This document shows positions 45,753 through 62,064 of a stretch of DNA of 64,000 bases, one piece after another. The first letter of the stretch is position 1, and the number at the start of each line of letters is the position of its first letter. The notes beneath the pieces were generated by a model. It made no database searches. It saw only the letters and a program-made list of their open reading frames with translations, and was not told where the DNA came from. The stretch comes from Agrococcus carbonis (GTDB lineage Bacteria; Actinomycetota; Actinomycetes; Actinomycetales; Microbacteriaceae): the NCBI RefSeq assembly GCF_900104705.1, contig NZ_LT629734.1, positions 1,178,001 through 1,242,000 of the forward strand, in the 5' to 3' direction. A program made the translations under genes and the position numbers.

Positions 45753-46295
45753 CTACCCGACCACCGCGTCGACCGCTGCCTCGACCGTCAGGCCGGGTTC
45801 GAACACGAGCCGTTCGAATGCGACCATCACCAGGGCGCCGAAGAACGCGGAGGCGTGCAGCGGCGACGCCGGTGAGCCGTCGCGCCGCAGCGCATCCGAG
45901 ATGCGGCTGAGCACCGTCGTGCGATGGCCCCCGAGCGTCTCGCTCCAGGGACGGTCGGTGCGCAGCAGCTCGGCGAAGACCACCTTCGTGCGCAGCGGCC
46001 GCTCCTCGACCGCGTGCAGGAACGCCCGGGCCAGCGCTCGGGCGGCCGGGCGGCCCTCGCCGGGCAGCGCCTCCGCCACCGACTCACCGAGCCGTTCGGC
46101 CAGGCGCGTGACCGACTCCTCGATGAGCGTCTCGAACAGCTGCTCCTTGGAGGCGAAGGAGTAGTAGACGCTGCCCTTGGCGACGCCCGCGGCGGCCGCG
46201 ATGTCGTCGACCGTGGTGGCGCTGACCCCACCGCTGGCGGCGAGCTCCGCTGCCGCGTCGAGCACCTTGGCGCGACTCAGGTTGGGCCTTGCCAC
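45753..46295 (-). CDS. TetR-family repressor
   Basis: 180 residues: an N-terminal HTH (VLDAAAELAASGGVSATTVDDIAAAAGVAKGSVYYSFASKEQLFETLI, residues 11-60) and a helical ligand domain. GTG start with GGAGG upstream. It is divergent from the degenerate ATPase/YhgE operon, and a palindromic operator lies between the promoter elements, so it very likely represses that operon and perhaps itself. The ligand is unknown. Confidence 0.9.
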   Translation of the reverse strand: MARPNLSRAKVLDAAAELAASGGVSATTVDDIAAAAGVAKGSVYYSFASKEQLFETLIEESVTRLAERLGESVAEALPGEGRPAARALARAFLHAVEERPLRTKVVFAELLRTDRPWSETLGGHRTTVLSRISDALRRDGSPASPLHASAFFGALVMVAFERLVFEPGLTVEAAVDAVVG

Positions 46296-46333
46296 TGCAC
46301 ACCTCCAGGATCCGCGACCGACAGCACGCTTAG

Positions 46334-46363
46334 TTGTACTGACCAGTCAGTTCAGGTTAGCAT
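46334..46363 (+). promoter_or_regulatory. TetR-controlled promoter of the YhgE operon
   Basis: TTGTAC (46334-46339) and TAGCAT (46358-46363) are 18 bases apart. Between them the palindrome ACTGAC-CA-GTCAGT (46338-46351) overlaps the -35 and spacer, the classic site for a TetR dimer. Confidence 0.7.
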
Positions 46364-46426
46364 CGACTCCGTCCTGTTCGCGACCACACCATCCGCACCG
46401 CCGCTCCGCAAGGGAGGGACCCCGTC

Positions 46427-47032
46427 ATGCGCATCGAGCTCCAGAGCGTCAGCAAGGGCAAGGGCATCGCCCTGCCGACGACCAGCTGCGCCTTCACCTC
46501 GGGCGAGGTCACGCGCGCCGTCTGCGAGACCGAGCAGCGCCCTACCGTGCTGGGGCTGATCGCCGCCGGTCGCATGAAGCCGGACACCGGCCGGGTGCTG
46601 CTAGACGGCGACGACCGCGCACGGCGCGAGATCCGCCGCCGCACCGCACTCGTCGATGCGCCGGGCGCATCCGACCCCGAGCCGAACGTCTCGCTGGGCG
46701 GTGCGATCGCCGAGGAGCTGCTCTACGCGGGCATACCCGGCACGCCGCTGCAGGTGCGGCGCTGGGCCGAGCAGCTCGGCGTCGGCGAGCACCTGGCGAC
46801 CCCCATCGCCGACGTCTCCCCCACCGTGCGCGTGCGGGTGCTGGCCGAGCTCGCCACCCTACGCGACGACATCGAGGCGATCGTGATCGTCAGCCCAGAC
46901 CGGCACGGCGGGCAGCCCGGTCAGTGGTGGGCGATCGCCCAGCGGCTGGCCGAGCGCGGCTACGCCGTGCTGGTGATCGCGGGCAGCGCGGCGGATGCGG
47001 CGCTCACGAACGACGAGGAGTCCAACGCGTGA
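46427..47032 (+). CDS. Degenerate ABC-type ATPase, partner of YhgE
   Basis: 201 residues with the ABC ATP-binding domain layout (MRIELQSVSKGKGIALPTT...SGEVTRAV, MKPDTGRVLLDG, a Gln-loop-like region), but the Walker A site reads ETEQRPTVL in place of GxxGxGKT. The signature motif is replaced by VSPTVRVRVLAEL, and the Walker B Asp-Glu pair by VSPDRHG. ATP hydrolysis looks impossible. It overlaps the YhgE gene by four bases, implying a co-translated complex. It may be a regulatory or scaffold subunit. Confidence 0.65.
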   Translation: MRIELQSVSKGKGIALPTTSCAFTSGEVTRAVCETEQRPTVLGLIAAGRMKPDTGRVLLDGDDRARREIRRRTALVDAPGASDPEPNVSLGGAIAEELLYAGIPGTPLQVRRWAEQLGVGEHLATPIADVSPTVRVRVLAELATLRDDIEAIVIVSPDRHGGQPGQWWAIAQRLAERGYAVLVIAGSAADAALTNDEESNA

Positions 47033-49038
47033 AGATCCCCCAGCTCGTCACGGCGGAGCTGCGGCGCCTGGTGTCGACGCCGATGGCCAGGCTCGCACTG
47101 CTCGCCCTCGCCGTCGTGCCGTTGCTCTACGGCGGCGTCTACCTGTGGGCCAACCAGGACCCCTACGCGTACCTCGATGAGCTGCCGGCCGCCCTGGTGG
47201 TCGAGGATGCCGGGTTCAACGGCGAGAACCAGGGCGACGAGGTGGCCGACCGCGTGATCGCGGACGCCACCTTCGACTGGCATCGGGTGAGCGCTGCCGA
47301 GGCCGCGGCCGGCGTCGCCGACGGCACCTTCGACTTCTCGCTGACGCTGCCCGAGACCTTCTCGGCAGACCTGCAGAGCGTCTCGGGTGACGACCCGCAT
47401 CAGGCCACGGTCACGCTCACGACGAACGACGCGAACAGCTATCTGGCATCGACGATCGGCACGCAGGCGACCGCGAGGATCCGCCAGAGCGTGGTGGCGG
47501 CCGTGGGCGAGGAGGCGGCCGGGCGCATGCTGCTGGCCATCAGCGATCTGCGCGATGGCATGCTCGACGCCGAGGGCGGTGCCGGGCAGCTCGCCGGTGG
47601 TCTGACGAGCGCGCTCGACGGGGCGACGCAGCTCACGAACGGCACGTCCGACGCGTCGGACGGCGCGACGCAGCTGCAGTCGGGCACAGCATCGCTCGTG
47701 GATGGCACGGCGCAGCTGCAGAGCGGTGCCGCGCAGCTCGCCGACGGCCTGGGCACGCTGCAGCAACGCACCGCGAACCTCCCCGCCCAGTCGCAGCAGC
47801 TCGCGGATGGGGCGCGCCGTGTGGCCGACGGCAACGCGCAGGTGGCGACCCTCGGCGACCGGGTCGCGGGCGTCACCGGCGGTCTGGCGGGCGATGTCCC
47901 CGATGCCCGAGCACAGATCGTCGCGCAGCTCACCGCCGCCGGCCTCGACGAGGCGCAGCTCGCGGCCGCGCTCGAGCCGCTCGATGCGCTCGGCGCCGAC
48001 ATCGTCGCCGGCGATGCGCGCGTGCAGGAGGCGAACGCGCAGCTGCAGCAGCTGGCGAGCGGCAGCTCGCAGCTGGCCGACGGAGCCGCGCAGATCGCCG
48101 CGTCGGCACCGGCACTCACCGACGGGATCGCGCAGGCTTCCTCCGGCGCAGCTCGGCTGGCGGACGGCACCGCCGCCGCGCACGATGGCGCGCTCGCGCT
48201 GGACGACGGCGCGACCCGTCTGGTCGCGGGTCTCGACCAGCTGGACGACGGGGCCGCAGCGCTGCGGGACGGCGTCGACGAGCTGCGTTCCGGGGCTGTG
48301 CAGCTGCGCGACGGCCTGGCCGATGGTGTCGCGCAGGTGCCCGCCTCGACACCGGCGCTGCGCGCCGACCAGGCTTCGACGATCGCCGACCCGGTCACGA
48401 CGGACGCCGATGCGGTGACCTCCGCCGGCACCTACGGCGCCGGACTCGCCCCATTCTTCTTGAGCCTCGCGGCGTGGATCGGCATGTACGCGCTGATGCT
48501 CATCACCAAGCCGCTGTCACGGCGCGCGATCACGGCGCTCCGCTCGCCCGTGCGGGTCGGCCTCGCCGCCTGGCTCACGCCCGCGCTGATGGGCGTCGCG
48601 CAGATGGCGGCGCTGTTCGCGCTCATCGCACTGTGGCTGCGGTTCGACATCGCCTGGCCATGGGCGACCGTCGGGCTGATGATGCTCACGGTGGTGACCT
48701 TCGCCGCCATCATCGTCGCGCTCAACGTCTGGTTGGGTTCGGTCGGGCAGTTCCTGGGGCTGGTGCTGATGGTGCTGCAGCTGGTGACCGCTGGCGGCAC
48801 CTTCCCGTGGCAGACGCTGCCGGCGCCGCTCGCGGCCCTCCACCACCTGCTGCCGATGAGCTACGCCGTGGACGGCATCCGCCAGGCCATGTACGGCGGG
48901 CAGGCGTCGATCGCGGCGAACGACGCGCTCGTGCTCGCAGGCTTCTTGGGCATCGCCGTGCTGGCGGTGATCGCGGGGGTGGCGCGCATGATGGATCACC
49001 GCACGCTGCGCGACCTGCAGCCGAGCCTCATCGGCTGA
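47029..49038 (+). CDS. YhgE/Pip-domain membrane protein
   Basis: 669 residues. One N-terminal membrane helix (LALLALAVVPLLYGGVYLW) with the FNGENQGDEVAD segment of YhgE proteins. A large external domain follows, built of repeated heptads such as LADGAQQLQSG (about 170-440), which form long helices. Five C-terminal helices (from about 465) resemble an ABC-2-type permease. The family includes the phage-infection protein Pip of lactococci. GTG start overlapping the ATPase gene stop. Exporter or surface role is inferred. Confidence 0.85.
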   Translation: MKIPQLVTAELRRLVSTPMARLALLALAVVPLLYGGVYLWANQDPYAYLDELPAALVVEDAGFNGENQGDEVADRVIADATFDWHRVSAAEAAAGVADGTFDFSLTLPETFSADLQSVSGDDPHQATVTLTTNDANSYLASTIGTQATARIRQSVVAAVGEEAAGRMLLAISDLRDGMLDAEGGAGQLAGGLTSALDGATQLTNGTSDASDGATQLQSGTASLVDGTAQLQSGAAQLADGLGTLQQRTANLPAQSQQLADGARRVADGNAQVATLGDRVAGVTGGLAGDVPDARAQIVAQLTAAGLDEAQLAAALEPLDALGADIVAGDARVQEANAQLQQLASGSSQLADGAAQIAASAPALTDGIAQASSGAARLADGTAAAHDGALALDDGATRLVAGLDQLDDGAAALRDGVDELRSGAVQLRDGLADGVAQVPASTPALRADQASTIADPVTTDADAVTSAGTYGAGLAPFFLSLAAWIGMYALMLITKPLSRRAITALRSPVRVGLAAWLTPALMGVAQMAALFALIALWLRFDIAWPWATVGLMMLTVVTFAAIIVALNVWLGSVGQFLGLVLMVLQLVTAGGTFPWQTLPAPLAALHHLLPMSYAVDGIRQAMYGGQASIAANDALVLAGFLGIAVLAVIAGVARMMDHRTLRDLQPSLIG

Positions 49039-49103
49039 GATCGATCTCGACCCTGCACGGGCGTCGGCGAGCTGGGCGCGTGGAGGCCCGGGGGGAGCTC
49101 CGA

Positions 49104-49721
49104 TCAGAGCGCCCACTCGCGCACCCACTCGTGCATCACGATCGCGGCAGCCGCGGCCGCGTTGATCGAGCGGGTCGAGCCGAACTGGCGGATCGCGACG
49201 TGCGCATCCGCCGCCACGATCGCCTCGTCGGTCAGCCCCGGCCCCTCCTGCCCGAACAGCAGCACGCAGCGCTCGGGCAGCGGCGCCGCGTCGACGGGCA
49301 CGCTGCCGGCGGTGTTGTCGACGGCCACGATCGTGAGGCCCGCCTCGTGCGCCCACGCGGTGAACGCATCCGTCGTCTCGTGGTGGCGGATGCGCTGGTA
49401 GCGGTCGGTGACCATGGCGCCGCGGCGGTTCCACCGGCGCTTGCCGATGATGTGCACCTCGGCGGCGGCGAAGGCGTTCGCGGTGCGCACGATCGAGCCG
49501 ATGTTGAGGTCGTGCTGCCAGTTCTCGATCGCGACGTGGAACGGGTGGCGGCGGGTGTCGAGGTCGGCCACGATCGCCTCGAGGCGCCAGTAGCGGTAGC
49601 GGTCGACGACGTTGCGGCGGTCGCCGTGGGCGAGCAGCTCGGGGTCGTAGCGCTCGTCGTCGGGCAGGGGTCCGCGCCACGGGCCGACGCCGACCTCGAG
49701 CCGGGGTTCCTCGTCGTGCAC
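49104..49721 (-). CDS. TrmH/SpoU-family RNA 2'-O-methyltransferase
   Basis: 205 residues. SPOUT motifs are visible: NIGSIVRTANAFAAAEVHIIGKRRW (motif 1), LLFGQEGPGLTDE (motif 2) and IRQFGSTRSINAAAAAAIVMHEW (motif 3), with the knot. They methylate a ribose in tRNA or rRNA; the target is unknown. GTG start, probably leaderless. It follows sortase 1 on the same strand. Confidence 0.9.
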   Translation of the reverse strand: MHDEEPRLEVGVGPWRGPLPDDERYDPELLAHGDRRNVVDRYRYWRLEAIVADLDTRRHPFHVAIENWQHDLNIGSIVRTANAFAAAEVHIIGKRRWNRRGAMVTDRYQRIRHHETTDAFTAWAHEAGLTIVAVDNTAGSVPVDAAPLPERCVLLFGQEGPGLTDEAIVAADAHVAIRQFGSTRSINAAAAAAIVMHEWVREWAL

Positions 49722-49727
49722 GCCTCC

Positions 49728-49733
49728 AGGCTA
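49728..49733 (-). promoter_or_regulatory. Probable leaderless -10 overlapping the sortase stop codon
   Basis: TAGCCT on the minus strand, six bases (GGAGGC) before the trmH GTG. Its TAG is the stop of the sortase gene. Confidence 0.5.
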
Positions 49734-50696
49734 CGGGCGGCGCCGCGCGATGATGTCGGGCTCGACCGCGCGCTCGGGCTCGAGCGGCGGCTCGGCGCCC
49801 GGCTCGCGCGGGCGGGCCGTGAGGCTTCGGTAGCCGGCCGCGAGCGCCCACCCGCCCGCGAGCGCCACGGCCCACCACGCGGGGCCGGGGATCTCGGGCA
49901 TCGCGGTGGCGGGGTCGTCGGATGCGGGGTTCGCGATGCGCTCGCCGGTGACGATGATGCGGTGGCTGTTGACGCCGAGCGGCGTGCACGTGACGAGGCT
50001 CACGAGGTCGCGACCGGACTCGGGGAGCAGCACGTCGGTGTTGCCGGGGTCGATGACCTCGACGTCGCGCACCTGATAGGTGAGCACCTCGCCGTAGACG
50101 TCGACCTCGAAGAGGTCGCCGGGCTCCACCTCGTCGAGGTCGCTGAAGAGCACCGCCTCGGGCAGGCCGCGGTGGCCGGTGAGCACGCTGTGGGTGCCGT
50201 CGCCGCCGACGGGGAGGGAGGATCCGAGCAGGTGCCCGATGCCGCGGCGCAGGGTGGCCTCGTCGGTGCCGTGGTAGATCGGCAGGTCGACCGCGATCGA
50301 GGGGATGCGGATGCGGGCCATGACGTCGGCGGGGCCGAGGTCGAGCTGCCGCTCGTACGCGGCGACGATTGCGCGCTGGTCGCTGAGCGGCGTGCCGCCG
50401 TAGGGGTCGATGAGGGCGCCGCCGGCGAGCGTGGCGTTGTAGTCGCGCGCCTCGGCCAGCTCCTGCTCGCGGCCCTCGGGACCGAGCGCGGTCATCACCT
50501 CCGCGTAGTCGTCGACCCGGTCGGACTGCTCGAGCTGCGCGAACCAGCCGGCGGCGGATGGGTAGGCGAGCACGGTGGAGCCAGCCATGGCGAGGAGGGC
50601 GATCACGAGCGTGGACGCGCTGCCTCGCCGGCGGCGGCTCGCGCGCGCGCTCTGCCGGGTCGTCGTTGCGGGCTGGTCGGCGATGACGGCGCTCAT
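49731..50696 (-). CDS. srtC: Class C (pilus) sortase, operon 1
   Basis: 321 residues. One N-terminal helix after a basic segment, the class C lid DPY at 97-99, and catalytic H175 (LTGHRGLP), C237 (VTCTPLGVNSHR), R246. A C-terminal helix (WWAVALAGGWALAAGY) gives the second membrane anchor typical of class C. It cross-links pilin subunits at the LPVTG motif. Start at ATG 50696 with GAGGAGG upstream. About 85% identical to sortase 2 by hand alignment over ~210 residues. Confidence 0.93.
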   Translation of the reverse strand: MSAVIADQPATTTRQSARASRRRRGSASTLVIALLAMAGSTVLAYPSAAGWFAQLEQSDRVDDYAEVMTALGPEGREQELAEARDYNATLAGGALIDPYGGTPLSDQRAIVAAYERQLDLGPADVMARIRIPSIAVDLPIYHGTDEATLRRGIGHLLGSSLPVGGDGTHSVLTGHRGLPEAVLFSDLDEVEPGDLFEVDVYGEVLTYQVRDVEVIDPGNTDVLLPESGRDLVSLVTCTPLGVNSHRIIVTGERIANPASDDPATAMPEIPGPAWWAVALAGGWALAAGYRSLTARPREPGAEPPLEPERAVEPDIIARRRP

Positions 50697-50721
50697 GCTG
50701 CCTCCTCGAGGGATGGGGGTC

Positions 50722-50790
50722 GGCCCCGCGGCGGCGACTGGGGGTCGCGCCGCGGGGCCGGTTCGCCCGGGCCGGCCGGAGCTCCGGCCG
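50722..50790 (-). promoter_or_regulatory. Hairpins between pilin 1 and sortase 1
   Basis: GGCCCCGCGGCG (50722-50733) pairs with CGCCGCGGGGCC (50748-50759). A perfect 18-base palindrome lies at 50773-50790. The first hairpin ends 26 bases before the sortase start, the same as in operon 2. Likely a partial terminator or RNA-processing site lowering sortase levels relative to pilin. Confidence 0.55.
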
Positions 50791-50803
50791 ACCCGGGACG
50801 GCA

Positions 50804-52261
50804 TCAGGCCTGCGCCTGCTCCTTGCGGCGACGCGCGAGGGCGAAGCCCAGCGCGAGCGCCACGAGGCCGAAGCCGCCGATCATGAAGGCGACCTGCCCG
50901 GTGCCACCGGTGACCGGCAGCTGGTACGGCGGGACCTGCTCGTTCTCGACCGTCACCTCGTAGCCGGCCGGGGTGCCCGGGGCGACCGTGAAGCTGTGGA
51001 CGCGGTCGGCCGGGTTCGCCGGCAGCACGTAGCCCGAGGGCGCCGTGATCTCGACGAGCTGGTACGCCAGGCCCGTGGGGCTGGCCGTGCGGAGGCCGTC
51101 GATCGCGATGACGCCGTTCGCGCCGCTCGTGTAGCGGATCGGGTCGCCCGAGCCGTCGAGGAGCGCGACGCCCGAGCTGTCGCGCAGCTCGAAGACCGCG
51201 CCCGAGAGGCCGCGCTCGCTCGCGTCGTGCTTGAAGAGCTCGACCGCGCCCCAGTGGTCGGTGACCGTGTTCGTCGGCACCGTGGTGCCGTTGATCACGA
51301 CGGCGCCCGTGTTGGCGATCGCGCCGGTCGCGCTGACCGCGACGACGGCGGTGTCGAACGTGACGGAGACCTCAGCGCCGGGGTTGTCGAGGAGCGCCTG
51401 ACGGCCGGCTCCCGTGAACGTCACCGACAGGGTGCCGCCCGCGCCGCCCGGCGCGCTCAGCGTGTAGTCGTCGCCGAGCTCGAGCGCGGTGCCCGCGACG
51501 GTGACGACGATCGAGCCCTCGACGTAGTCGAGCTGCGCGGCGAGGTCGTCGCGCACGACGTAGCTCGTGAGCGCGGTGCCCTGCGAGGGCACCGGCGCGT
51601 GCGAGGTGATCGCCCACTCGATCGTGGTGCCGAGCACCTGGTGGTCGGGCGCGGAGACCGACTTGCTCGCGAGCGCCGTCGTGTTCTTGGGGTAGACGTG
51701 CACGTCGTAGAACCAGTCGCCCGTGCTCTCGTCGACCTGCGGCAGCACGACGAGGAACGGCGCCGGCTGGATGACGACGTTGGGGCCGCCGACACTCGGC
51801 GCCGGGACGGCCGACTCCTGCACGAGGTAGACGCCCACCGGGAGCCCGTCGACCTCGAGCAGGCCGTCGCCGTCGGTGGAGCCCACGACCGGCGTGCCGA
51901 ACTCGTACGGGCCGCCGACGCCGTTCACGACATCCGCGCCGGTGAGGCCAACGCCGAGCTTGGCCCACGTGTCGTTGTCGAGCACGTCGAGGCTCGTCAC
52001 CCGCGTGACGGTGAACTCGACCCCGGCGACGGGCTCGAGACCCGCGAGCGCGTCCTCGCCGAGCTCGAGGCCCGTGCCCACATCGCCGCGCTCGACGGGC
52101 TGCTCGAACTTGTGGATGATGATCGACCCCGGCTCCTGCGGGTCGATGTTGGGGGCGGCCGAGGCCGGGAGGGCCCCGCCGAGGGCGGTGAGGGTCGCGA
52201 GCGCGACCGCTCCGAAGCCTGCGGCGACTCGTGCCGTCAGGCCCTTCTTCGTGGATGCCAT
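50804..52261 (-). CDS. Major pilin with LPVTG anchor, operon 1
   Basis: 485 residues. Signal peptide (1-36, ending LPASAA), the pilin motif WFYDVHVYPKN with K192 (W183 to N193), which forms the inter-subunit bond, the E-box YQLVEITAPSGY near residue 412, and LPVTG at 448-452 before a membrane helix and RRRK. These are the hallmarks of Spa-type major pilins (SpaA/SpaH). Internal isopeptide bonds are expected. Ribosome site AAGGAAG. Confidence 0.95.
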   Translation of the reverse strand: MASTKKGLTARVAAGFGAVALATLTALGGALPASAAPNIDPQEPGSIIIHKFEQPVERGDVGTGLELGEDALAGLEPVAGVEFTVTRVTSLDVLDNDTWAKLGVGLTGADVVNGVGGPYEFGTPVVGSTDGDGLLEVDGLPVGVYLVQESAVPAPSVGGPNVVIQPAPFLVVLPQVDESTGDWFYDVHVYPKNTTALASKSVSAPDHQVLGTTIEWAITSHAPVPSQGTALTSYVVRDDLAAQLDYVEGSIVVTVAGTALELGDDYTLSAPGGAGGTLSVTFTGAGRQALLDNPGAEVSVTFDTAVVAVSATGAIANTGAVVINGTTVPTNTVTDHWGAVELFKHDASERGLSGAVFELRDSSGVALLDGSGDPIRYTSGANGVIAIDGLRTASPTGLAYQLVEITAPSGYVLPANPADRVHSFTVAPGTPAGYEVTVENEQVPPYQLPVTGGTGQVAFMIGGFGLVALALGFALARRRKEQAQA

Positions 52262-52338
52262 GGCGGCACTTCCTTTCGGTGATGCAGGGTGTTGCAGAGG
52301 GTGGATGGACAGGTGTCGGGTGGACGGGGCAGGCCGGA

Positions 52339-55300
52339 TCACGTGAGCCGCCCTCGGAGGCGGATGACGCGCATCCGGATCAGCAGCGCCGCGGCGGCGA
52401 GCACGAGCAGCGCGAGTCCGCCGAAGAGGTAGGCGTCGGCGCCGAGGCCGCCGGTGACCGGGAGCGCGAGCGCCGGTGGCGCCGCGTTCACGAACCGGTA
52501 GGTGGTGGTCTGCCCGGGCTCGGGGGCGGTGATCTCGCTCGACGTCACGTCGACCCAGGTGCTGCCCTCGAGTCGCTGCAGCCGCAGCTGCAGGTAGGCG
52601 TAGCTGCTCGATTCGCTGAGCGCGTAGGCGGCGCCGGGGCGCACGGTCACGGTGTTGTCCGCATCCGCCGCCTCTGCGCCCTGCACCGTCGTGGGGATCA
52701 GCCCGAGGGTGGCGTCGACGGGTGCGGCGGTGAGCTCGAAGTCCTCCGGCAGGAGCGAGCCCGCCATCGCGGCATCGATGTGCTTGAGCAGCACCACGTG
52801 CGCGGTCTGCTGCGTCACGGTGCAGGTGACGCGCGTGCCGACGGCGACCGTGACCGTTGCACTGGTCACCGCGACGGCGCTGCCGCCCTGGTCGACGCAG
52901 CTCCACGCACCGGCGACGTGGGTCGCGGGGCCGCCGGTCGCGGCGAGCTGATAGGCGCCGGGCGCGACATCCTGCGCGACGCCGGTGGTGAAGGCGATGG
53001 GGCTGCCGCCGGTCGGGGTCGCCGAGAGGCTCCACGCGGCGGGATCGGCGTCGGTCGCCTGGTTGACGAGCGTCAGCCGCGTCGGCTGCCGACGGTTGAC
53101 GAACGAGCACTCGATGCGGGTGCCGGGCGCCACCTGCTGCAGCTGTGCGCCGTCGGCGGTCGTGAAGCTCTGCACGAAGGGCGCGGATGCGATGGGCCGC
53201 ACGATGCACGCGCCCTCCTGGAACGCGAACCCGGGCTGCTGCTGCTCGGCGACCGAGACGGTGGCGCGGGCCGACGCGGAGCCGAAGGCCAGCCCCCACG
53301 TGGCGACGCCCTGGGCGTTCGTCTGCTGCTGCGCCGCGCCGACGAGCGACACGGTCGGCGTCGTCGCCGTCACCGAGGTGCTGACCGACCAGCCGGCGCC
53401 CGGCGATCGGTTCGCGCCGCCGACGTCCTCGACCACCTTGCGGATCGTCACGGATCCGGTCAGCGGTGCATTGCGGATGGTGCAGGCGACGCTCATGCCG
53501 GCCGAGGCGATCGTCACGCGGCCGGAGCCCGCCGTGCTCGTGTCGACCGGCAGCGCGGTGCCGTTCTGGTCGACGCAGCTGAAGCTCGTCGCGTAGCTCG
53601 AGGCGTTGCCGTTCGAGAACGTCTCGGTGAAGGCGTAGGTGCCGCCCGCGAGCGCGGCGACCGGCCCGGCCTGCGCGGACTGCACACCGGTGGAGGCCCC
53701 CGTCGTGGTCGCCGAGGCGAGCGACGCGCCGGCCGGGGTGCGCGAGCTGATGGTGAACTGGTCGCCGGTCCCGGCGCGCGCCACGACATCCTTCAGGATC
53801 GTGAGCGTCGACGGCGTCTGGCAGCTCGCGAGGTCGGTGCTCGAGAGCCCGCTCGCGGCGTTGCCGGCGTCGAAGGTCTGCGTCGACGGGTTGTACGAGC
53901 GCACCGCCGTGCTGCTGCCGAGGTAGAGGCGACCGTCGGCGTTGAAGGCGGCGCCGACGACGTCGCTGAGGCCGGTCACGATCGGCGTGAACGCCGCGAC
54001 GGCGAGCGTCGTGTTGTTCGCCGCCGCGAGCGTCTGCGCGGCGATCGTGTAGATCCGCGTCGGCGAGCCCGTGGTGGAGGACGTGACCGCGACGTACAGG
54101 TTGCCCGCGGCGTCGAAGGCGAGGTCGCCGGTGGCCTGCTGCGTGGTCTCCTGCGTCGTGAACTGCCCGAGCCGGGTGACGCCTGTCGTCGGCGTGAAGC
54201 GGTAGAGCGCGACGCTCTGCGACTGGCCGTTGGTGAAGGCGGCGAAGGCGTAGCTGCCGTCGCCGAGGTTGACGGCACCGGCGGTGTAGCGCGCGGAGGC
54301 GAGGCTCACGTCGTTCGCGAGCGGGATGCGCTGCCACCCCTGACTGACCGAGTAGTAGCGGAACGCGCCGATGCCGGATGCGTTGGACGATGGCCGCTCG
54401 ATGAGGTACGCCGTGGTGCCGCCCGGTCCGATGCCGAGACCGTTGGCCTCGTTGTTGCCGAAGTTCGGCACGGTCGCGAAGACCTGGCTCGTCGACGCCC
54501 CGCCGCCCGTGGGCGTGACGCGCGTGATCACGCCGGTCGAGGAGAGCGAGTAGAACGACCCCGCGGTGCACACGAGCGCCGCGTTGGCCGCGGTCGTGAA
54601 GGTGCCGAGATCGGCACTCGCCGACGTGAGGCTCGCGGTGCGCCAGCTCGTGTCGGTCCAGAAGCGGCCCGCCGGCGGCGTAGCCGGGCGCACCCGGTAC
54701 TCGTGCTGGGCTGTGGCGCTGTTCACCGCGACGGGATCGGCGCCGACCTGGCTCAGCTGCAGCTCACCCGCGTCGGGGTCGAGGTCGCCGCTTCCCGCGC
54801 AGCCGGCCGTGCAGTCGGCGACGGTCGCGCTCGCGCTCCACGCCGACCAGTCGGCCCACCAGGTCTCGCCCGCGAGCACCGTGCCGGTGCGCGAGCGATG
54901 CTGCACCTCGAAGGTCGAGCCGGCCGCCGCGGGCGAGACGAGCCAGTGGAGCGAGGGCGTCTCGACCCCAGCCTCCGGCCCGCCGACCGCGAGGGGCGCG
55001 ATCGGGGCGTCGGCGAGCTCGGAGACCGGCTCATCCGTCGGGGAGGCGGACGCCTGAGGTGCCGTCGGCTCTACCGGAGCGGCTGAGGCGGGCGAGGGCT
55101 GCGCAGGGGCCGGCGCGGCTGGGGCCGGGCTCGCCGCTGGTGCGGGCGCGGGCGCGGTCGTGGGGGCGGGCTCGGTCGTCGGCGCCGGCTGCGCGGACGG
55201 CGCCGGCTGGGCCGAGGGGGCCGGCTGGGCCGAGGGCACGGGGGCCGGCGCGGAGGGTGCGGGCTGCGCCACAGGCGCCTGCGGAGCAGCGGTCTCCGAG

Positions 55301-55551
55301 GGCGCCGGAGCCGTCGACGCAGACTCGGTCGGCGCCGCGTCCGAGCCCGACGGCGCTGCCGCCGCCGTGAGCGACGCCGCAGCGGAGGTCTGGGCCGCGG
55401 GGGCGTCGGATGTCGACGGTGCGGCGGCGTCGGCCGCGCTCGCAGCGCTCGGCGCGAGCACCGTCAGCGCGAGCGAGCACGCGATCGCCGTGGCGATCGG
55501 GCCGAGCACCGAACGTGGTGAGCGGCGGCGTGAGGGCGTGCGCGATCGCAT
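52339..55551 (-). CDS. LPXTG surface protein, probable tip adhesin, operon 1
   Basis: 1070 residues. Signal peptide to about 39, then ~140 residues of Ala/Pro/Ser low complexity with PSAQPA repeats. A Cys-rich N-domain (DCTAGCAGSGDL) and a beta-propeller-like region (about 325-577) follow, then four prealbumin-like Ig/SpaA domains with paired Cys (VACTIRNAP, IECSFVNRRQ, VTCTVTQQ) and LPVTG at 1030-1034. I start at ATG 55551. No vWA or collagen-binding domain was seen, so the tip role is inferred from order and size. Confidence 0.85.
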   Translation of the reverse strand: MRSRTPSRRRSPRSVLGPIATAIACSLALTVLAPSAASAADAAAPSTSDAPAAQTSAAASLTAAAAPSGSDAAPTESASTAPAPSETAAPQAPVAQPAPSAPAPVPSAQPAPSAQPAPSAQPAPTTEPAPTTAPAPAPAASPAPAAPAPAQPSPASAAPVEPTAPQASASPTDEPVSELADAPIAPLAVGGPEAGVETPSLHWLVSPAAAGSTFEVQHRSRTGTVLAGETWWADWSAWSASATVADCTAGCAGSGDLDPDAGELQLSQVGADPVAVNSATAQHEYRVRPATPPAGRFWTDTSWRTASLTSASADLGTFTTAANAALVCTAGSFYSLSSTGVITRVTPTGGGASTSQVFATVPNFGNNEANGLGIGPGGTTAYLIERPSSNASGIGAFRYYSVSQGWQRIPLANDVSLASARYTAGAVNLGDGSYAFAAFTNGQSQSVALYRFTPTTGVTRLGQFTTQETTQQATGDLAFDAAGNLYVAVTSSTTGSPTRIYTIAAQTLAAANNTTLAVAAFTPIVTGLSDVVGAAFNADGRLYLGSSTAVRSYNPSTQTFDAGNAASGLSSTDLASCQTPSTLTILKDVVARAGTGDQFTISSRTPAGASLASATTTGASTGVQSAQAGPVAALAGGTYAFTETFSNGNASSYATSFSCVDQNGTALPVDTSTAGSGRVTIASAGMSVACTIRNAPLTGSVTIRKVVEDVGGANRSPGAGWSVSTSVTATTPTVSLVGAAQQQTNAQGVATWGLAFGSASARATVSVAEQQQPGFAFQEGACIVRPIASAPFVQSFTTADGAQLQQVAPGTRIECSFVNRRQPTRLTLVNQATDADPAAWSLSATPTGGSPIAFTTGVAQDVAPGAYQLAATGGPATHVAGAWSCVDQGGSAVAVTSATVTVAVGTRVTCTVTQQTAHVVLLKHIDAAMAGSLLPEDFELTAAPVDATLGLIPTTVQGAEAADADNTVTVRPGAAYALSESSSYAYLQLRLQRLEGSTWVDVTSSEITAPEPGQTTTYRFVNAAPPALALPVTGGLGADAYLFGGLALLVLAAAALLIRMRVIRLRGRLT

Positions 55552-55638
55552 GGCGAGACACCTTCCGGACAGGCGGGTGCTGAGGCCCTGCCAGTGCAGA
55601 AGAGACGCTCCGACGCGGGCCCCGCTGGGGTTGCCTGC

Positions 55639-55693
55639 AACGTATTGAGCAAGACTCAAGGAGGCCGCGGTCGTTCACCGAACGAATCCTCAA
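55639..55693 (-). promoter_or_regulatory. Promoter/operator region of pilus operon 1
   Basis: TTGAG-CAAGA-CTCAA (55645-55659) is a five-base inverted repeat inside AACGTATTGAGC. GAATCCTCAA at 55684-55693 lies further upstream. Both blocks recur before operon 2 at similar distance (about 90-100 bases from the adhesin start). The gap 55694-55760 is AT-richer with no gene. Confidence 0.5.
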
Positions 55694-55760
55694 CGTACGA
55701 TAAGCGCGTTACCGAACACTGTGCGTTGTACGCAAAGACGCCGCTGGTCGCAGGCTTCGC

Positions 55761-56657
55761 TCAGGTGAGGCGCGCGCTCATCGAGCGGTAGGCCGCCGCG
55801 AAGGCGAAGCCGCACGCGAGGCCCACCGCCCACCACGGCGGTCCGGGGATCTCCGGCATGATGCGCTCGGGCGCGTCGGCCTCGGGCGTGGGGATGCGCT
55901 CGCCCGTGACGATGATGCGGTGGCTGTTGACGCCGAGGGGCGTGCACGTCACGAGGCTCACGAGGTCGCGGCCGAGCTCGGGCGCGAGCGAGTCGGTCTC
56001 GCTCGGCTCGATCACCTGCACCTCGCGCACCCGGTAGGTCAGCACCTCGCCGTAGACGTCGAGCTCGAAGACGTCGCCGACGGCCACCTGATCGAGGTCG
56101 CTGAAGAGCACCGACTCCGGCAGCCCGCGGTGGCCCGTCAGCACGCTGTGCGTGCTCTCCCCGCCGACCGGCAGCGCCGAGCCGAGCAGGTGGCCGACGC
56201 CCTTCCGCAGCGTCACCTCGTCGGTGCCGTGGTAGATCGGCAGGTCGACGGCTATGGAAGGGATCCGGATGCGGGCCATGACGTCGGCGGGGCCCAGGTC
56301 GAGCTGCTCCTCGTAGGCGGCGACGATGGCGCGCTGCTCGCTGAGCGGCGTACCGCCGTACGGGTCGATGAGCGCCCCGCCCGTGAGGGTCTGGTTGTAG
56401 GCGCGCGCGTCGGCGAGCTCCTGCTCGCGCCCTTCCGGGCCGAGGTCGGTCATCACCTCGGCGTAGTCGTCGATGCGGTGCGACTGCTCGAGCTGGCTGA
56501 ACCAACCCGCGATCGACGGGTACAGCAGGGTGCTGACGCCGCCGATGACCATGAGCGCGACGATCAGCGAGGAGCCGGGCGCTCGCCGCCGCGTCCGCCG
56601 CGCCGGCGAGGCCGCGGATGCGCGGGGGGCCGGGGCGGACTCGGCGGCGAGCGTCAC
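55761..56657 (-). CDS. srtC: Class C (pilus) sortase, operon 2
   Basis: 298 residues, paralogue of sortase 1. Lid DPY at 98-100, catalytic H176, C238 and R247, N-terminal and C-terminal helices. GTG start with AAGGAG five bases upstream. The ~85% identity to sortase 1 over the catalytic domain contrasts with the diverged pilins. Confidence 0.93.
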   Translation of the reverse strand: MTLAAESAPAPRASAASPARRTRRRAPGSSLIVALMVIGGVSTLLYPSIAGWFSQLEQSHRIDDYAEVMTDLGPEGREQELADARAYNQTLTGGALIDPYGGTPLSEQRAIVAAYEEQLDLGPADVMARIRIPSIAVDLPIYHGTDEVTLRKGVGHLLGSALPVGGESTHSVLTGHRGLPESVLFSDLDQVAVGDVFELDVYGEVLTYRVREVQVIEPSETDSLAPELGRDLVSLVTCTPLGVNSHRIIVTGERIPTPEADAPERIMPEIPGPPWWAVGLACGFAFAAAYRSMSARLT

Positions 56658-56682
56658 GGTGGCTCCTTCGGAGGAGGTCAGC

Positions 56683-56718
56683 CCCGCGGCAGCGGAGGGA
56701 TGGGGCCGCTGCCGCGGG
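56683..56718 (-). promoter_or_regulatory. Hairpin between pilin 2 and sortase 2
   Basis: CCCGCGGCAGCGG (56683-56695) pairs perfectly with CCGCTGCCGCGGG (56706-56718) around a ten-base loop. It ends 26 bases before the sortase start, as in operon 1. Confidence 0.6.
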
Positions 56719-56734
56719 ACTGGGTCTGGGTGGC

Positions 56735-58159
56735 TCAGCCCTGCTCGGCGGCCTTGCGGCGACGCACGAGCATGAAGCCGAGGGCGCCGAGCAGCAGGCC
56801 GGCGCCGCCGATCATGAAGGCGGCCTGGCCGGCGCCACCGGTGATGGGCAGCGCGTAGGCGGGCACCTGGTCGTTGACGACCACGGCCTCGACGGCGGCG
56901 TTGACGCCGACGGGAATCGCCAGGGTCCACTCGGTCGTCGCGCCGAGCACATACCCGGCGGGCGCAGACTTCTCGCGGATCAGGTACGTCTGCGCGCCGT
57001 TCGCGTCGGTGCGCAGGCCGGCGATCGCGACAACGCCGTTCACGTCGCTCGTGAACTCCGTGCGGCCACCGATGGCGACCACTTCGCCCGAGGCGTCGAC
57101 GACCTCGAAGATCGCGCCCTGCAGCGGCGCGCCATTGTCGTCGTTCTTCTGCAGCTCGATGCCGCCGAAGTACACGGATGCGGTGTTCGACGTGATGCTC
57201 GCGCCGTTGATCGTGATGGTGGCCGAGTTGCCGATCGTGCCGGCGCCGAAGCTCTGGACGGTCGTGTCGATGGCCACCGCCACGCGCTGGTCGGGGTTGG
57301 CGGCGAGCACAGCGCGACCCGCGGCGGTGAACTCGATGCGCAGCGCCTGCCCCGTGAGCGTCACCGAGAAGTCCGTGCCGCGCACGAGCGTCGTGCTGCC
57401 GACGGTGATGCGCACGGCGCCGGTGTCGCCGATGGTGTGCGCGAGGCGGTCGTCGAGCGTCTCGGTGATCACGAAGGAGTCGACGGTCGTGCCGGCAGTG
57501 GCGACGGGAACGCCGATGTCGAGCGTCCACGTCACATTCGAGCCGAGGCCCTCCTGCTCGAACGCCTCAGCGCGGTTGGTGACGTCGGAGACCGTGCTCT
57601 TGGGGAAGACGTGCACGTCATAGTTCCAGGCGCCCGTTGCCTCGACGGGCTGCGGGACCACCACGAGGAACGGCTGCGACTTGATCACGATGCCGGCCGC
57701 CGCGGGAGCGTCGAGCTCCTCGACGAGGTAGACGCCCTGCGGAACGACCTGTCGGACGCTGCCATCGGCGCCCGTCGTCACGGTCCAGGCGTTCACGCCG
57801 GCCGTCGCGCCGAGCGGGTACGTGGCAGGAGCCGCGATCACGGCCGGCGCCTTGAGCGTCCGGAGCGTCGTCCACGTGCTGTTCTGCGCGACGTCGAGGC
57901 TCGTCACCCGGCGGATCGAGTAGTCGACGCCCGAAATCGGGTCGCCGGCGACCGGGTCGGTCGAAGCACCGGTGCCAGGAGCGCCGGCCGCCCCCGTCTG
58001 CTCGTGCTTGTGGATGGTGATCGCCGCCGGCGCAGCAGGGTCGATGTTGGCCGCAGCGGAAGCGGGCAGCACGGCGCCGAAGGCGGCAAGCGTCGCGAGG
58101 GCGACGGCGCCGAAGCCGGCGACGATGCGCGCCGACAGGCTCTTGGTGGTTGTTGCCAT
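56735..58159 (-). CDS. Major pilin with LPITG anchor, operon 2
   Basis: 474 residues. Signal peptide to about 37, IDPAAPAAITIHKHEQ at the mature N-terminus, pilin motif WNYDVHVFPKS with K187, E-box TYLIREKSAPAGY, and LPITG at 437-441 before a membrane helix and RRRK. Same architecture as pilin 1 but with only scattered similarity outside the motifs, ends and signal peptide. Ribosome site AGGAAGGAA. Confidence 0.94.
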   Translation of the reverse strand: MATTTKSLSARIVAGFGAVALATLAAFGAVLPASAAANIDPAAPAAITIHKHEQTGAAGAPGTGASTDPVAGDPISGVDYSIRRVTSLDVAQNSTWTTLRTLKAPAVIAAPATYPLGATAGVNAWTVTTGADGSVRQVVPQGVYLVEELDAPAAAGIVIKSQPFLVVVPQPVEATGAWNYDVHVFPKSTVSDVTNRAEAFEQEGLGSNVTWTLDIGVPVATAGTTVDSFVITETLDDRLAHTIGDTGAVRITVGSTTLVRGTDFSVTLTGQALRIEFTAAGRAVLAANPDQRVAVAIDTTVQSFGAGTIGNSATITINGASITSNTASVYFGGIELQKNDDNGAPLQGAIFEVVDASGEVVAIGGRTEFTSDVNGVVAIAGLRTDANGAQTYLIREKSAPAGYVLGATTEWTLAIPVGVNAAVEAVVVNDQVPAYALPITGGAGQAAFMIGGAGLLLGALGFMLVRRRKAAEQG

Positions 58160-58218
58160 GGAGGCAGTTCCTTCCTGGAGGGGTGGTGCAGAGGGACGGT
58201 TGTGCTGGGGTCTGGGGT

Positions 58219-60945
58219 TCACGCTCGGCGGCCTGCCGTGCGGGAGCGGATCCTCGTGCGGACGAGGAGGAACGCGGAGGCGAGGAAGGAGAGCAGCAGC
58301 ACGCCCGATCCGCCGAGCTGGTAGGTGTCGGCGCCGACGCCGCCGGTGAGGGGCAGCGCCAGGGGCGCGGGCGCCGCGCTGACGAACCGGTAGACCTCGT
58401 GCCCGCCGACGGCGACGCGGGCGGTCGGCGAGGTCACGGTCACCCACTCGGCCTCGAGGAAGACGCCGTTCGCGGGGTAGCCTCCGCGGTACTGCTGGAG
58501 CTCGAGCCCGAGCGCCGCGTAGCTCGTCGCCTCGGTGAGTCGGTACTCGTGGTCGGGGCGCACGTCGAAGCTGTTTGCGCCGGCGCCGCTGGGCACAACG
58601 GTCTCGCTGCCGGGCACCGTGACGGCGGGCAGGCCGGCGATGGCAGTCGACGGGGTGGCCGTGAGCGTGAACCCGCTCGCGAGCAGCGCGCTCGGCTGAC
58701 CGGCGACGTGCTTCAGCAGCGTGAGCCGCGCGGTCGTGAGCGTGACGGTGCACGTCACCTGAGAGCCCTGCGCCACGGTCACCTTGCTGTCGGTCACGGG
58801 AACGGTTGTGCCCTGCTGGTCGACGCAGGCCCAGGTGCCGAGATAGGCAGGGTCGCCCGTAGCAGTGAGCGTGTACGGCACGCCCTTCGTGACGGACGCG
58901 GTCGCGGTGCGCGAACCCGTCGCACCCGAGGGGCCAAGGACGTTCTGCGGGTCGCGCGACGACAGCTGCCAGGTCGTCGGAGCGGCCCCGCCCGGCGCCG
59001 CGACGGCCGCCGCAAGTGTCAGCGTGGTGGGCTGTTCCCGATTGAGGAAGCGACAGTGCACTGTCGATCCGGCCGGCACGCCCGGGACAGTGATGTTGCG
59101 CGTCGCCGTGCCGCTGACGCTGGGCAGGGGTGTTCCGCTCGGCGCAATCACGTCGCAGCGCACTGACTCCGGTGCGTACCCGGCGCGAGCCGGCTCCTCA
59201 ACGGTGATCGTCGCCGGAGTCGTCGCCGAGGGGTGCACGAAGCGCAGCTCCGGCGTCACGCCGGACGCCTGGGTCGTGCGCACGAACGAGGTCGGGCTGC
59301 CGCTGCCGAACGCGGTGGTGATGGCCATCGCCCAATCGGCGCCGGGCGAGGAGACCGAATCGGTCGGGCCCAGGAGACCCTTCGCGACGGTGATGACGGT
59401 ACGGAGCGGCATGATCGTGATGGTGCACACGACGCTGGCGCCGGCAGGCACGTTCACAGACGCGGACCATCCATCGACCGGAGTGAAGCTCGTGCCCGTG
59501 CACGCGATGCGGGCCGAGTAGTAGGGCGCCTGAGCAGAAGGAACGCTCGCAGCAGTGACGGTGTATTGCCCCGGCGTCACGACCGACGGCCCGACCTGCG
59601 CGGCCGTATTGGCTCCGGTCGACGCCGGCCCCAGATTGACGGTGCCAGCGGCGCTCACTTGGAACGAGTCCGCTGCGAGGTCGCGCCTCGTCACCTGCAC
59701 GGCGACGGTCAGCGACGAGTTCGCCGCCGGCACCGCGCAGGTCGCGAGGTCGGTCGCACCAGGACCGAGGCCGGTGGTGATCTCCGAGCGCTGCGTCCAG
59801 GTGACCGGGTCGTAGCGGCGCAGCGTCGTGGCGTTCGACAGCAGCACGGAGCCGTCGTCGGCGAACGCGGCGCCGTTGATGCCGCTGAGGCTGACCTCCC
59901 GAGGCGAGCCTGCCGTCGCAGCGATCGAGCCGCCGTTCGCAGCCGCGAGCGCGGCTGCCGCCACCGTGAAAGTCGTGACCGAGGTCGCGCCCGCGCGCAT
60001 GATCACCAGGTCGCCTGCCCCGTCGAACGCCATGTCGCCGCTGCCATCGCTCGAGGCTCCCGTCGCGATCGTGCCGACGAGGGCGACGGCGTTGCTCTGC
60101 GCGTCGTACTGGTGCAGCTGGAAGGAACCGGAGGTCGTGAATCCCCCGAAGAGGAAGCGGCTGCTCGCGCGGTCGTACGCGCCGGCGACGATCGAATAGG
60201 CGACCGACGTGCTCACGGGGACGCGCCGCCAGCCGCCTGAGGTGTCGTACCGCAGCACGGCGCTGAGCCTGGAGCCGCTCCGGTCGACCGCGTAGAGCTC
60301 GGAGCCGGTGCCGGCGGCGAGGCCGTTGGCCTCGCCGGTCAAGCCGGTCCAGGCACCGAAGAGGGTCACCACAGGTGAGTTCGCCGTCGACACCTGCTGC
60401 ACAGCGCCACTGCTCAACAGCGCGAACGCCGTACCGGCACACGGAACCGAGGGCAGCACCACGCGGTCCACTCGGAACGGACCGAGCGTCACGGTCGACA
60501 GCCAGCTGTTCGACGACCCGGTGGCGGCGGGGGCCGTGCTCGTGAAGGTCGCACCAGGCGGCTGAGGGACGGGCGAGACGCGGTAGCGGCGCATGCCGTT
60601 GTGGTTCGGGTCGTTCAGCAGCACCTGCAGCTCGCCCGCACCGGGGTGGATATCCGGCCCCGAGCACGGAGCCTCGGTGCAGTCCACGACGGTGAGGGCC
60701 TGGGCGGTCTCCCAGTTCTCGGAGCCGTTGCCCTGGGCCTTCTCGACGCGGTACGTCGCTCCGCCGTAGAGCGCACCGCTGCCGTCGACAGTCCGCCAGT
60801 AGAGCGAGCCGCCCTGCGTCGGCAGCGCTGCGGCCTCGACAGGGGAGGCCGGCATCTGCGGCAGCACGCTCGCGGCGACCGCGAGCGCAACGACGGCGAC
60901 GGCGACGCCGAGCGGGCGTCGTCGTGCAGAGGTGCGCGTGAGCAT
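58219..60945 (-). CDS. LPXTG surface protein, probable tip adhesin, operon 2
   Basis: 908 residues, homologous to adhesin 1 but without the Pro-rich spacer. Signal peptide to about 39, an N-domain with DCTEAPCSGPDIHPGAGELQ, a propeller-like region (about 169-402), then prealbumin-like domains (VVCTITIMP, VHCRFLNREQP, VTCTVTLT) and LPLTG at 864-868. Start ATG 60945 preceded by GGGATGGA. Confidence 0.83.
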   Translation of the reverse strand: MLTRTSARRRPLGVAVAVVALAVAASVLPQMPASPVEAAALPTQGGSLYWRTVDGSGALYGGATYRVEKAQGNGSENWETAQALTVVDCTEAPCSGPDIHPGAGELQVLLNDPNHNGMRRYRVSPVPQPPGATFTSTAPAATGSSNSWLSTVTLGPFRVDRVVLPSVPCAGTAFALLSSGAVQQVSTANSPVVTLFGAWTGLTGEANGLAAGTGSELYAVDRSGSRLSAVLRYDTSGGWRRVPVSTSVAYSIVAGAYDRASSRFLFGGFTTSGSFQLHQYDAQSNAVALVGTIATGASSDGSGDMAFDGAGDLVIMRAGATSVTTFTVAAAALAAANGGSIAATAGSPREVSLSGINGAAFADDGSVLLSNATTLRRYDPVTWTQRSEITTGLGPGATDLATCAVPAANSSLTVAVQVTRRDLAADSFQVSAAGTVNLGPASTGANTAAQVGPSVVTPGQYTVTAASVPSAQAPYYSARIACTGTSFTPVDGWSASVNVPAGASVVCTITIMPLRTVITVAKGLLGPTDSVSSPGADWAMAITTAFGSGSPTSFVRTTQASGVTPELRFVHPSATTPATITVEEPARAGYAPESVRCDVIAPSGTPLPSVSGTATRNITVPGVPAGSTVHCRFLNREQPTTLTLAAAVAAPGGAAPTTWQLSSRDPQNVLGPSGATGSRTATASVTKGVPYTLTATGDPAYLGTWACVDQQGTTVPVTDSKVTVAQGSQVTCTVTLTTARLTLLKHVAGQPSALLASGFTLTATPSTAIAGLPAVTVPGSETVVPSGAGANSFDVRPDHEYRLTEATSYAALGLELQQYRGGYPANGVFLEAEWVTVTSPTARVAVGGHEVYRFVSAAPAPLALPLTGGVGADTYQLGGSGVLLLSFLASAFLLVRTRIRSRTAGRRA

Positions 60946-61044
60946 GCGAGTTCCATCCCTGGATCGTTCGTGATGTGAGCGAGCTCGCGGTGCGCTTCGA
61001 GGGCTGGCCGTCGGTGGTCTCCGTCGCAGCTCGCTTCGTCGATG

Positions 61045-61159
61045 AACGTATTGAGCGAACCTCAGGAGCCGGGGGCTCAGAACGCAAGGAAATCTCAGCG
61101 TCTCCGGGTGATTCAAAAGTGAACGAAACCGAACGCTGTTCGAATGGAGGAATCCTCAA
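61045..61159 (-). promoter_or_regulatory. Promoter/operator region of pilus operon 2
   Basis: AACGTATTGAGCGAACCTCAGGA (61045-61067) contains TGAG-N5-CTCA, matching operon 1. GGAATCCTCAA lies at 61149-61159. The 291-base gap (60946-61236) is the most AT-rich stretch in the window, contains no gene and probably also carries activator sites. Confidence 0.5.
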
Positions 61160-61224
61160 TCTGGCTTCGGATTGGCTCAAGACGGCGCGTCGTGGTCGTT
61201 CACATGACGGACACATGCGCGGCG

Positions 61225-61230
61225 TAGCCT
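61225..61230 (+). promoter_or_regulatory. Probable leaderless -10 of the NagD-like gene
   Basis: TAGCCT, six bases before the ATG at 61237. Confidence 0.5.
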
Positions 61231-61236
61231 GGCCCC

Positions 61237-62064
61237 ATGGCCATCGACCGCACCCGCGCTGACATCGAATGCTGGCTCACCGACATGGATGGCGTGCTCG
61301 TCCACGAGGACCGCCCGCTCCCCGGCGCGAAGGAGCTGCTGCAGCAGTGGCAGGACGCCGGCACCGAGTTCCTGGTGCTCACCAACAACTCGATCTTCAC
61401 GCCGCGCGACCTCTCTGCGCGACTGCGCGCATCCGGCCTCATCGTGCCCGAGGAGCGGATCTGGACGAGCGCGCTCGCGACCGCCGACTTCCTGCACGAC
61501 CAGATGCCGGGCGGCTCGGCCTACGTCATCGGCGAGGCGGGCCTCATCACCGCGCTGCACGACATCGGCTTCACGATGACCGAGACGAAGCCCGACTTCG
61601 TGGTGATCGGCGAGACCCGCTCGTACTCGTTCGAGGCGATCACCAAGGCGATCCGCCTCATCGCCGGCGGCGCGCGCTTCATCTCGACCAATCCCGACGC
61701 GACCGGCCCGAGCGCCGACGGCGTGCTGCCGGCGACCGGCGCGATCAACGCGCTCATCACGAAGGCGACGGGCCGCGTGCCCTACATCGTCGGGAAGCCC
61801 AACCCCATGATGTTCCGCTCGGCGCTCAACAAGATCGGCGCGCACTCCGAGGTGACCGGCATGATCGGCGACCGCATGGACACCGACATCGTCGCCGGCA
61901 TGGAGGCGGGCCTGCACACCGTGCTCGTCATGACGGGCATCAGCGACCCGGCGGTCGTCGAGACCTTCCCGTTCCGCCCCGACGAGATGCTGCGCAGCGT
62001 GCAGGAGCTGCTGGAGCCCGCGCCGGTCGACTCCGAGCTCGACGAGCCCCGCGCCGACGTCTGA
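61237..62064 (+). CDS. nagD: HAD-IIA phosphatase, NagD-like
   Basis: 275 residues. HAD motif I DMDGV with nucleophile D16 and D18, LTNNS (motif II), KPNPMMF (motif III Lys) and GDRMDTDIVAG (motif IV). The cap matches the NagD/p-nitrophenyl phosphatase group that hydrolyses nucleotide or sugar phosphates. Divergent from the pilus operon 2 promoter. Confidence 0.9.
   Translation: MAIDRTRADIECWLTDMDGVLVHEDRPLPGAKELLQQWQDAGTEFLVLTNNSIFTPRDLSARLRASGLIVPEERIWTSALATADFLHDQMPGGSAYVIGEAGLITALHDIGFTMTETKPDFVVIGETRSYSFEAITKAIRLIAGGARFISTNPDATGPSADGVLPATGAINALITKATGRVPYIVGKPNPMMFRSALNKIGAHSEVTGMIGDRMDTDIVAGMEAGLHTVLVMTGISDPAVVETFPFRPDEMLRSVQELLEPAPVDSELDEPRADV

Follow-up and report, generated by a model that had tools for sequence, protein, structure and literature searches.

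Do two adjacent pilus operons in one chromosome descend from a single duplicated locus, or have their parts been exchanged with those of other strains? This question is raised by a stretch of 64,000 nucleotides (nt) of Agrococcus carbonis (contig NZ_LT629734.1, positions 1,178,001 to 1,242,000; hereafter the window). In it, two tandem three-gene units, operons A and B, lie between a gene for a HAD-IIA hydrolase and one for a SpoU-type RNA methyltransferase. We consider it likely that the window encodes two sortase-assembled fibres, the exposed subunits of which have been swapped by recombination in a slot between these two conserved genes. The gene content, the motifs, the variation of the slot, the incongruence of the modules and the breaks in sequence identity are shown directly; fibre formation, adhesion, attachment by a class E sortase, the route of recombination and co-regulation by an upstream element are inferred. 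From 5' to 3' on the minus strand, the genes are tipA, pilA, srtA, tipB, pilB and srtB, with starts that we picked from the available in-frame starts. The genes and their flanks are as follows (aa, amino acids):

61237-62064, plus strand: HAD-IIA hydrolase gene, a conserved flank of the slot (NCBIfam)
58219-60945, minus strand: tipA of operon A, 908 aa, with a signal peptide, a predicted beta-propeller, prealbumin-like domains (Pfam SpaA_2) and an LPLTG anchor
56735-58159, minus strand: pilA of operon A, 474 aa, a major pilin of the SpaH/EbpB family with the pilin-motif Lys, an E-box and LPITG
55761-56657, minus strand: srtA of operon A, 298 aa, a class C sortase with a GTG start
52339-55551, minus strand: tipB of operon B, 1070 aa, of the same tip class as tipA (BLAST), with an LPVTG anchor (Pfam SpaA_3)
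50804-52261, minus strand: pilB of operon B, 485 aa, a major pilin of the SpaH/EbpB family with LPVTG
49731-50696, minus strand: srtB of operon B, 321 aa, a class C sortase
49104-49721, minus strand: SpoU-type RNA methyltransferase gene, a conserved flank of the slot (NCBIfam; SpoU domain in a homologue)

A preliminary description of this DNA had proposed two tandem minus-strand units in an actinobacterium, each in the order tip, pilin and class C sortase, with differing anchor motifs and two fibre types. The six genes were located as claimed, the anchors differ as listed above, and two fibre types are predicted from family models and motifs. The two sortases scored 245.5 and 241.4 bits with the NCBIfam class C sortase model NF033745 (cut-off 160), and both units have the catalytic His, Cys and Arg and the N-terminal lid of class C sortases. 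TGHRG, LVTCTP and SHR of sortase B align with the solved structures 8t28 (the best match) and 2xwg (the second), and sortase A has the same words. The DPY lid proposed earlier was also recovered, as DPY of sortase B aligned with DPW of 2xwg. The hand-made estimate of about 85% identity over about 210 residues agrees with the computed value of 84.8% for the best 210 residues; across 297 aligned residues, identity was 73.1%. Cross-polymerisation of the pilins by either sortase is weakly suggested by these similar catalytic domains.

The pilins scored 274.3 and 288.7 bits with the NCBIfam SpaH/EbpB major-pilin model NF033902 (cut-off 95). Their solved relatives include 4hss and 7woi, and 3uxf, named 'Fimbrial subunit type 1', matches both. 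We take 2xwg and 3uxf to be of Actinomyces origin. The pilin-motif Lys and the E-box Glu, both noted in the preliminary description, were found in pilA and pilB and in all 23 aligned pilins (21 genus operons, G026 and G110). pilA and pilB were 44.4% identical across 466 aligned residues; conservation was highest in the signal peptide and the anchor. The view that the pilins are alike only in motifs and ends is thus too strong. In pilB, candidate isopeptide Lys, acid and Asn residues can be named as judged from alignment columns alone. A search of genome contigs with pilB confirmed one relative among 32 stretches.

The two tips share 37.5% identity. Their anchors, LPLTG in tipA and LPVTG in tipB, are each followed by a hydrophobic stretch and an Arg-rich tail, as in LPxTG tip or minor pilin proteins. 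Prealbumin-like SpaA domains were the only Pfam matches over the cut-off; no NCBIfam family was matched by the tips, and the Pfam and NCBIfam scans listed no anchor family for them. A structure model predicts a beta-propeller at residues about 169-408 of tipA. This model has low overall confidence (mean predicted local distance difference test score 64.9, predicted template modelling score 0.39), and only residues about 171-400 were used. tipB has a long N-terminal stretch rich in Ala, Pro and Ser. When 22 tips (one partial) were grouped by BLAST of their N-terminal parts, 14 fell with the window tips, five formed a second group (CshA_NR2 and GEVED domains in the three scanned) and three were unassigned. 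tipA was unpaired in the tip tree, its best match being G019 with 41%; since the metagenome tip P0003 was 75% identical to it in one BLAST search, tipA is not unique. Elsewhere, the tip and pilin share one open frame without an intervening stop, namely in L039 (the first operon of G007), L040 (G002), L042 (G016), L043 (G014) and L044 (G022). In all five, AAGGA or AAGGGA, which resembles a ribosome-binding site, precedes the pilin ATG. The protein P0004 (1518 aa) resembles a further tip-pilin fusion by its Pfam domains and its match to tipA.

The slot was compared in 24 Agrococcus genomes, of which G000 is that of the window. The HAD gene was found in 24 and the methyltransferase gene in 22 of them. 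Two tandem operons occupy the slot in only two genomes (G000 and G007). One slot operon is present in 12 (G001, G002, G004, G009, G010, G011, G014, G016, G017, G019, G020 and G022). A giant open reading frame (ORF) of 4257-4396 codons that ends in LPxTG fills the slot in four (G006, G013, G021 and G023); the starts behind these counts are not fixed, and the giant protein of G023 is shorter than its frame because the frame opens before the HAD gene. In G018, the slot holds a SipW-type set. It has no gene in G008 and two or three short ORFs in G012 and G015, some of them presumably GNAT acetyltransferases; in G003 and G005 the contig ends there. Second class C operons lie past the HAD gene in G010 and G011 and past the methyltransferase gene in G001. 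The sole operon of G018 lies past the HAD gene, and those of G006 and G015 lie elsewhere. Neither flank gene appeared within the 19.5 kb fetched at four loci that do not belong to the genus. Thus, the 24 genomes show variable pilus genes between conserved flanks.

The giant ORFs lie at L056:3349-16506, L057:3359-16132, L058:1782-14702 and L059:2705-15895; of the two scanned, L056 consists mainly of DUF7507 and DUF11 repeats and L057 mainly of CshA repeats. The four-gene set of G018 lies at L036:1240-4041. Its first two proteins have SipW-type signal-peptide matches (the second above the cut-off for the short domain model only), the third has a weak ricin-lectin match, and the last is a signal peptidase I. 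In G016, a 403-codon ORF lies between the sortase and the methyltransferase genes (L042, oriented 15004-16400), which looks like an insertion sequence transposase.

The borders of the variation were located at the nucleotide level in two trios of operons with near-identical sortases, giving six pairs. The pilin core was replaced in five pairs (54-60% identity vs 89-95% in the sortase) and kept in G014/G022 (98%). The tip cores of the six pairs were 47, 48, 63, 73, 74 and 96% identical; identities of tip signal peptides rest on guessed starts and were not used. Between G016 and G022, identity was 95% in the pilin signal peptide, 60% in the core, 95% in the anchor and 95% in the sortase. Along this pair, the pilin gene was 93-96% identical in its first 90 nt; identity fell to 33-83% in the mature part and returned to 83-100% from about the LPxTG codons through the sortase. 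In G014 and G022, the tip core was 47% identical beside the 98% pilin core, and the tips come from different groups. The reverse was seen for the out-of-slot operons of G010 and G018 (G010_out and G018_out), with 96% in the tip core, 54% in the pilin core and 90% in the sortase.

These breaks bear on the simplest history, which the preliminary description had favoured: one duplication of the whole locus within the lineage, then fast selected divergence of the exposed proteins without exchange. The same gene order and the element ahead of each unit (described below) fit such a duplication. So do the proportions of synonymous (pS) and non-synonymous (pN) differences between A and B, because overall pS is equal in sortases and pilins (0.393 and 0.397) and pN is doubled in the pilins (0.178 vs 0.362). 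However, whole cores distinguish operons of other strains that are otherwise nearly identical, the modules of the window have different closest relatives, and A and B are not sisters, although this last point is weakest for the sortases. We regard this history as highly improbable. Recent gene conversion between sortases A and B was also rejected, since pS is equal in the two gene pairs and the lowest 40-codon sortase window still has a pS of 0.31.

The trees comprised 27 sortases, 23 pilins and 23 tips, and a DNA tree was made of the sortases of 21 genus operons. The pilin and tip trees included the 21 genus operons, G026 and G110; G015, G034 and G070 were left out as far relatives. The approximately unbiased (AU) test rejected a sisterhood of A and B for the pilins (p 3.5e-6) and the tips (p 2.8e-55), and more weakly for the sortases (p 0.019 for protein, 0.0064 for DNA). 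pilB grouped with the pilins G011_slot and G020_slot (support 100/100), pilA with the first pilin of G007, G007_s1 (99/98), and then with G016 (100/98), and tipB with the second tip of G007, G007_s2 (100/100). In the DNA tree, sortase B joined G007_s2 (92/92, on a branch that was not starred), and sortase A was unplaced. The rpoB gene, found in 21 of 24 genomes, placed G000 with G019, G018, G010, G006, G004 and G002 (86/93), and G007, G011, G020 and G016 in another clade (86/99). The partners named above for pilA, pilB, tipB and sortase B belong to a different rpoB clade from G000. In the comparison of sortase and pilin trees proposed earlier, A and B are thus kept apart strongly for pilins and tips and less strongly for sortases. 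The two units look like mosaics, not like foreign operons taken in whole. Recombination between variants is recorded in both the incongruence of the modules and the identity breaks.

As stated, then, whole-locus duplication followed by diversification does not hold, as A and B are not sisters, the nearest relatives of their modules are in different genomes, and cores have been replaced. A part of it may survive in an older event. A tandem duplication could predate the split of G000 and G007 and have been passed down vertically, after which single cassettes were replaced (either tipA or the first G007 tip, and either pilB or the second G007 pilin). This history overlaps with exchange in the slot and differs from it on the origin of the pair. 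G000 and G007 have the only tandem slots among the 24 genomes. In the trees, tipB and sortase B find their partners in the second G007 operon and pilA in the first G007 pilin, and the AU test did not reject sortase A with the first sortase of G007 at 0.05 (p 0.096 and 0.054). However, the test rejected pilB with the second pilin of G007 (p 1e-4), and the two genomes lie in different rpoB clades. In addition, G017 adjoins G007 by rpoB (100/100) yet carries one quite different operon. We give this older duplication a little under an even chance.

Each whole operon could instead have been acquired independently from a different donor into the one slot. The slot does accept unrelated cargo (the giant LPxTG ORF and the SipW-type set), and second copies occupy three different places. 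This sits poorly with the mosaic look of the units, with close relatives of the sortases, pilins and tipB within the genus, and with the GC content, which is 0.69-0.74 at the locus vs 0.69-0.79 over the window. We therefore hold two independent arrivals to be rather unlikely. That the window copy arrived recently from a foreign source, considered separately, is unsupported since the GC content shows no step at the locus. No mobile gene was recognised in the slot of the window.

Exchange of exposed subunits within the slot, which is found in most of the genus, remains our preferred explanation. In class C pili generally, sortase C couples the Lys of one pilin to the Thr in the LPxTG of the following one; the tip protein goes first, and the base is anchored by a housekeeping sortase. 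Each unit of the window would form one covalent fibre in this way, the class C sortase joining the pilin-motif Lys to the LPxTG of the next major pilin. The tip protein would cap the fibre as an adhesin, in tipA with a predicted beta-propeller on a stalk, and the class E sortase of the genome may attach the fibre base to the wall. Homologous recombination in conserved sequence (the bounding genes, the signal-peptide and anchor codons, and the sortase) would replace the exposed cores of pilins and tips while the assembly parts are retained. We believe that such recombination, with breaks in conserved sequence, explains the variation most economically. The tandem pair would then combine cassettes in two different ways, with an upstream element of one kind ahead of each unit, and may supply extra homology for recombination.

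This upstream element has the pattern TGAG-N5-CTCA[A/T]TA, and its function is inferred only. The copies in the window are as follows:

61049-61064, minus strand: TGAG-N5-CTCAATA before operon A, a pattern match of 16 bases
55643-55658, minus strand: TGAG-N5-CTCAATA before operon B, a pattern match of 16 bases

The genome of the window has exactly two copies, one ahead of each operon. The 24 whole genomes together have 19, of which 16 are in the slot; the reversed control gave four. Among the 16 in-slot operons, all but that of G017 have the element ahead of the tip gene. It lies about 107-122 nt from the tip start in 11 of these 15 operons; in the other four, the script halted at an earlier in-frame start. 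None of the 19 copies is at the six out-of-slot class C operons or the giant-ORF slots, and in G018 the element lies 123 nt ahead of the SipW-type set. The out-of-slot copies are at G011:C1:1441942, G002:C1:2659824 and G004:C1:1303350. Tentatively, the slot may be a promoter-anchored exchange socket, in which the HAD-side flank and the element stay constant and the inserted cargo comes under one pilus-specific regulator. The cargo would be a tandem pair, varied pilins together with tips from at least two of the three classes, or the SipW-type set of G018. Tandem units would serve as a cassette store, letting one cell show two fibres and form new tip-pilin combinations by recombination. Four terminator-like sites were found at 49000-61400, which is not clearly over chance (shuffles mean 2.1, standard deviation 1.7).

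Several points weigh against the preferred explanation. The sortase trees are weakly resolved, and the groups for the AU tests were chosen partly after viewing the trees. The closest pairs are few, so a handful of replacements carries the fine-scale case. In G010_out and G018_out, the break is not clean at the signal-peptide and anchor borders, because both ends have also diverged (68% and 76% nt identity in the pilin gene). The domain-2 Lys column of pilA has Asn, followed by Arg; four others of the 23 pilins also have no Lys there. In the alignment columns, the residue after the pilin Lys is Asn in 21 of 23 pilins and Ser in pilA. Because of these two features, the pilA subunit may be constructed differently. 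Finally, a scan of 49000-61400 on both strands found no sigma-70-type promoter (shuffles 0.3), and the element can thus not be taken as an established promoter.

Beyond the methyltransferase gene, positions 45753-49038 encode a TetR-type regulator and an ABC-2 membrane transporter. A minus-strand ORF at 37745-40162 has PIG-L deacetylase and methyltransferase domains. It overlaps a 2042-codon minus frame (39040-45168) without a Pfam match, in DNA of 75-79% GC.

Among the titles listed by one open-access library, we found no paper on Agrococcus pili and none joining sortase, pilus and Microbacteriaceae. A listed paper containing the word Agrococcus concerned Macrococcus, and one retrieved for tandem cassettes concerned a housekeeping sortase of Bifidobacterium. 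The closest known likeness is the FCT (fibronectin- and collagen-binding, T-antigen) region of Streptococcus pyogenes. In the relevant passages of two papers, it spans 11-16 kb with conserved flanks and several architectures, is called a recombination hotspot, and has had exchange of pilus genes between types inferred (PMC1949102, PMC7900414). The Agrococcus slot likewise holds variable pilus genes between conserved flanks, with signs of recombination between variants. As those passages describe it, the FCT region carries its own regulators and other matrix-binding proteins, whereas no regulator gene was seen in the slot of the window, where the six pilus genes are all that were assigned. The Agrococcus units also differ in being tip-pilin-sortase sets, and the slot elsewhere holds a giant LPxTG ORF or a SipW-type set. 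For streptococcal pathogens, host immunity is the usual context in which pilus-gene exchange at a fixed locus is discussed. Agrococcus is a soil- and environment-dwelling genus. Because the same architecture is found here, other pressures, such as phages, grazers, or recognition of surfaces and partners, are suggested as drivers of pilus exchange. The position of cassette borders close to the signal peptide and LPxTG suggests which parts of a sortase pilus are exchangeable without loss of assembly, and the species set offers natural tip and pilin combinations for testing this exchangeability.

The Streptococcus agalactiae pilus islands (PI-1, PI-2a and PI-2b) are less closely comparable, in being gained and lost, in having allelic backbone proteins, and in that the PI-1 integration site sometimes holds another element, according to passages of one paper (PMC4074840). 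These islands encode two class C sortases besides a backbone protein and two ancillary ones (PMC4074840), whereas the Agrococcus units have three genes. Actinomyces fimQP and fimAB also combine a pilus sortase with proteins for tip and shaft, and there are two fimbria types per organism; the passages on them do not describe a tandem exchangeable slot (PMC3231923). Bifidobacterium, a commensal actinobacterium in those passages, has two to six clusters per genome with a major pilin, minor pilins and a sortase (PMC3231923). Its pilus-like structures were seen by atomic force microscopy (PMC3231923). The Bifidobacterium clusters described there lie at various positions and are transposon-flanked (PMC3231923), whereas the Agrococcus slot is fixed. 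Overall, the working parts of the locus are ordinary, and the exchange slot in Agrococcus resembles the FCT region.

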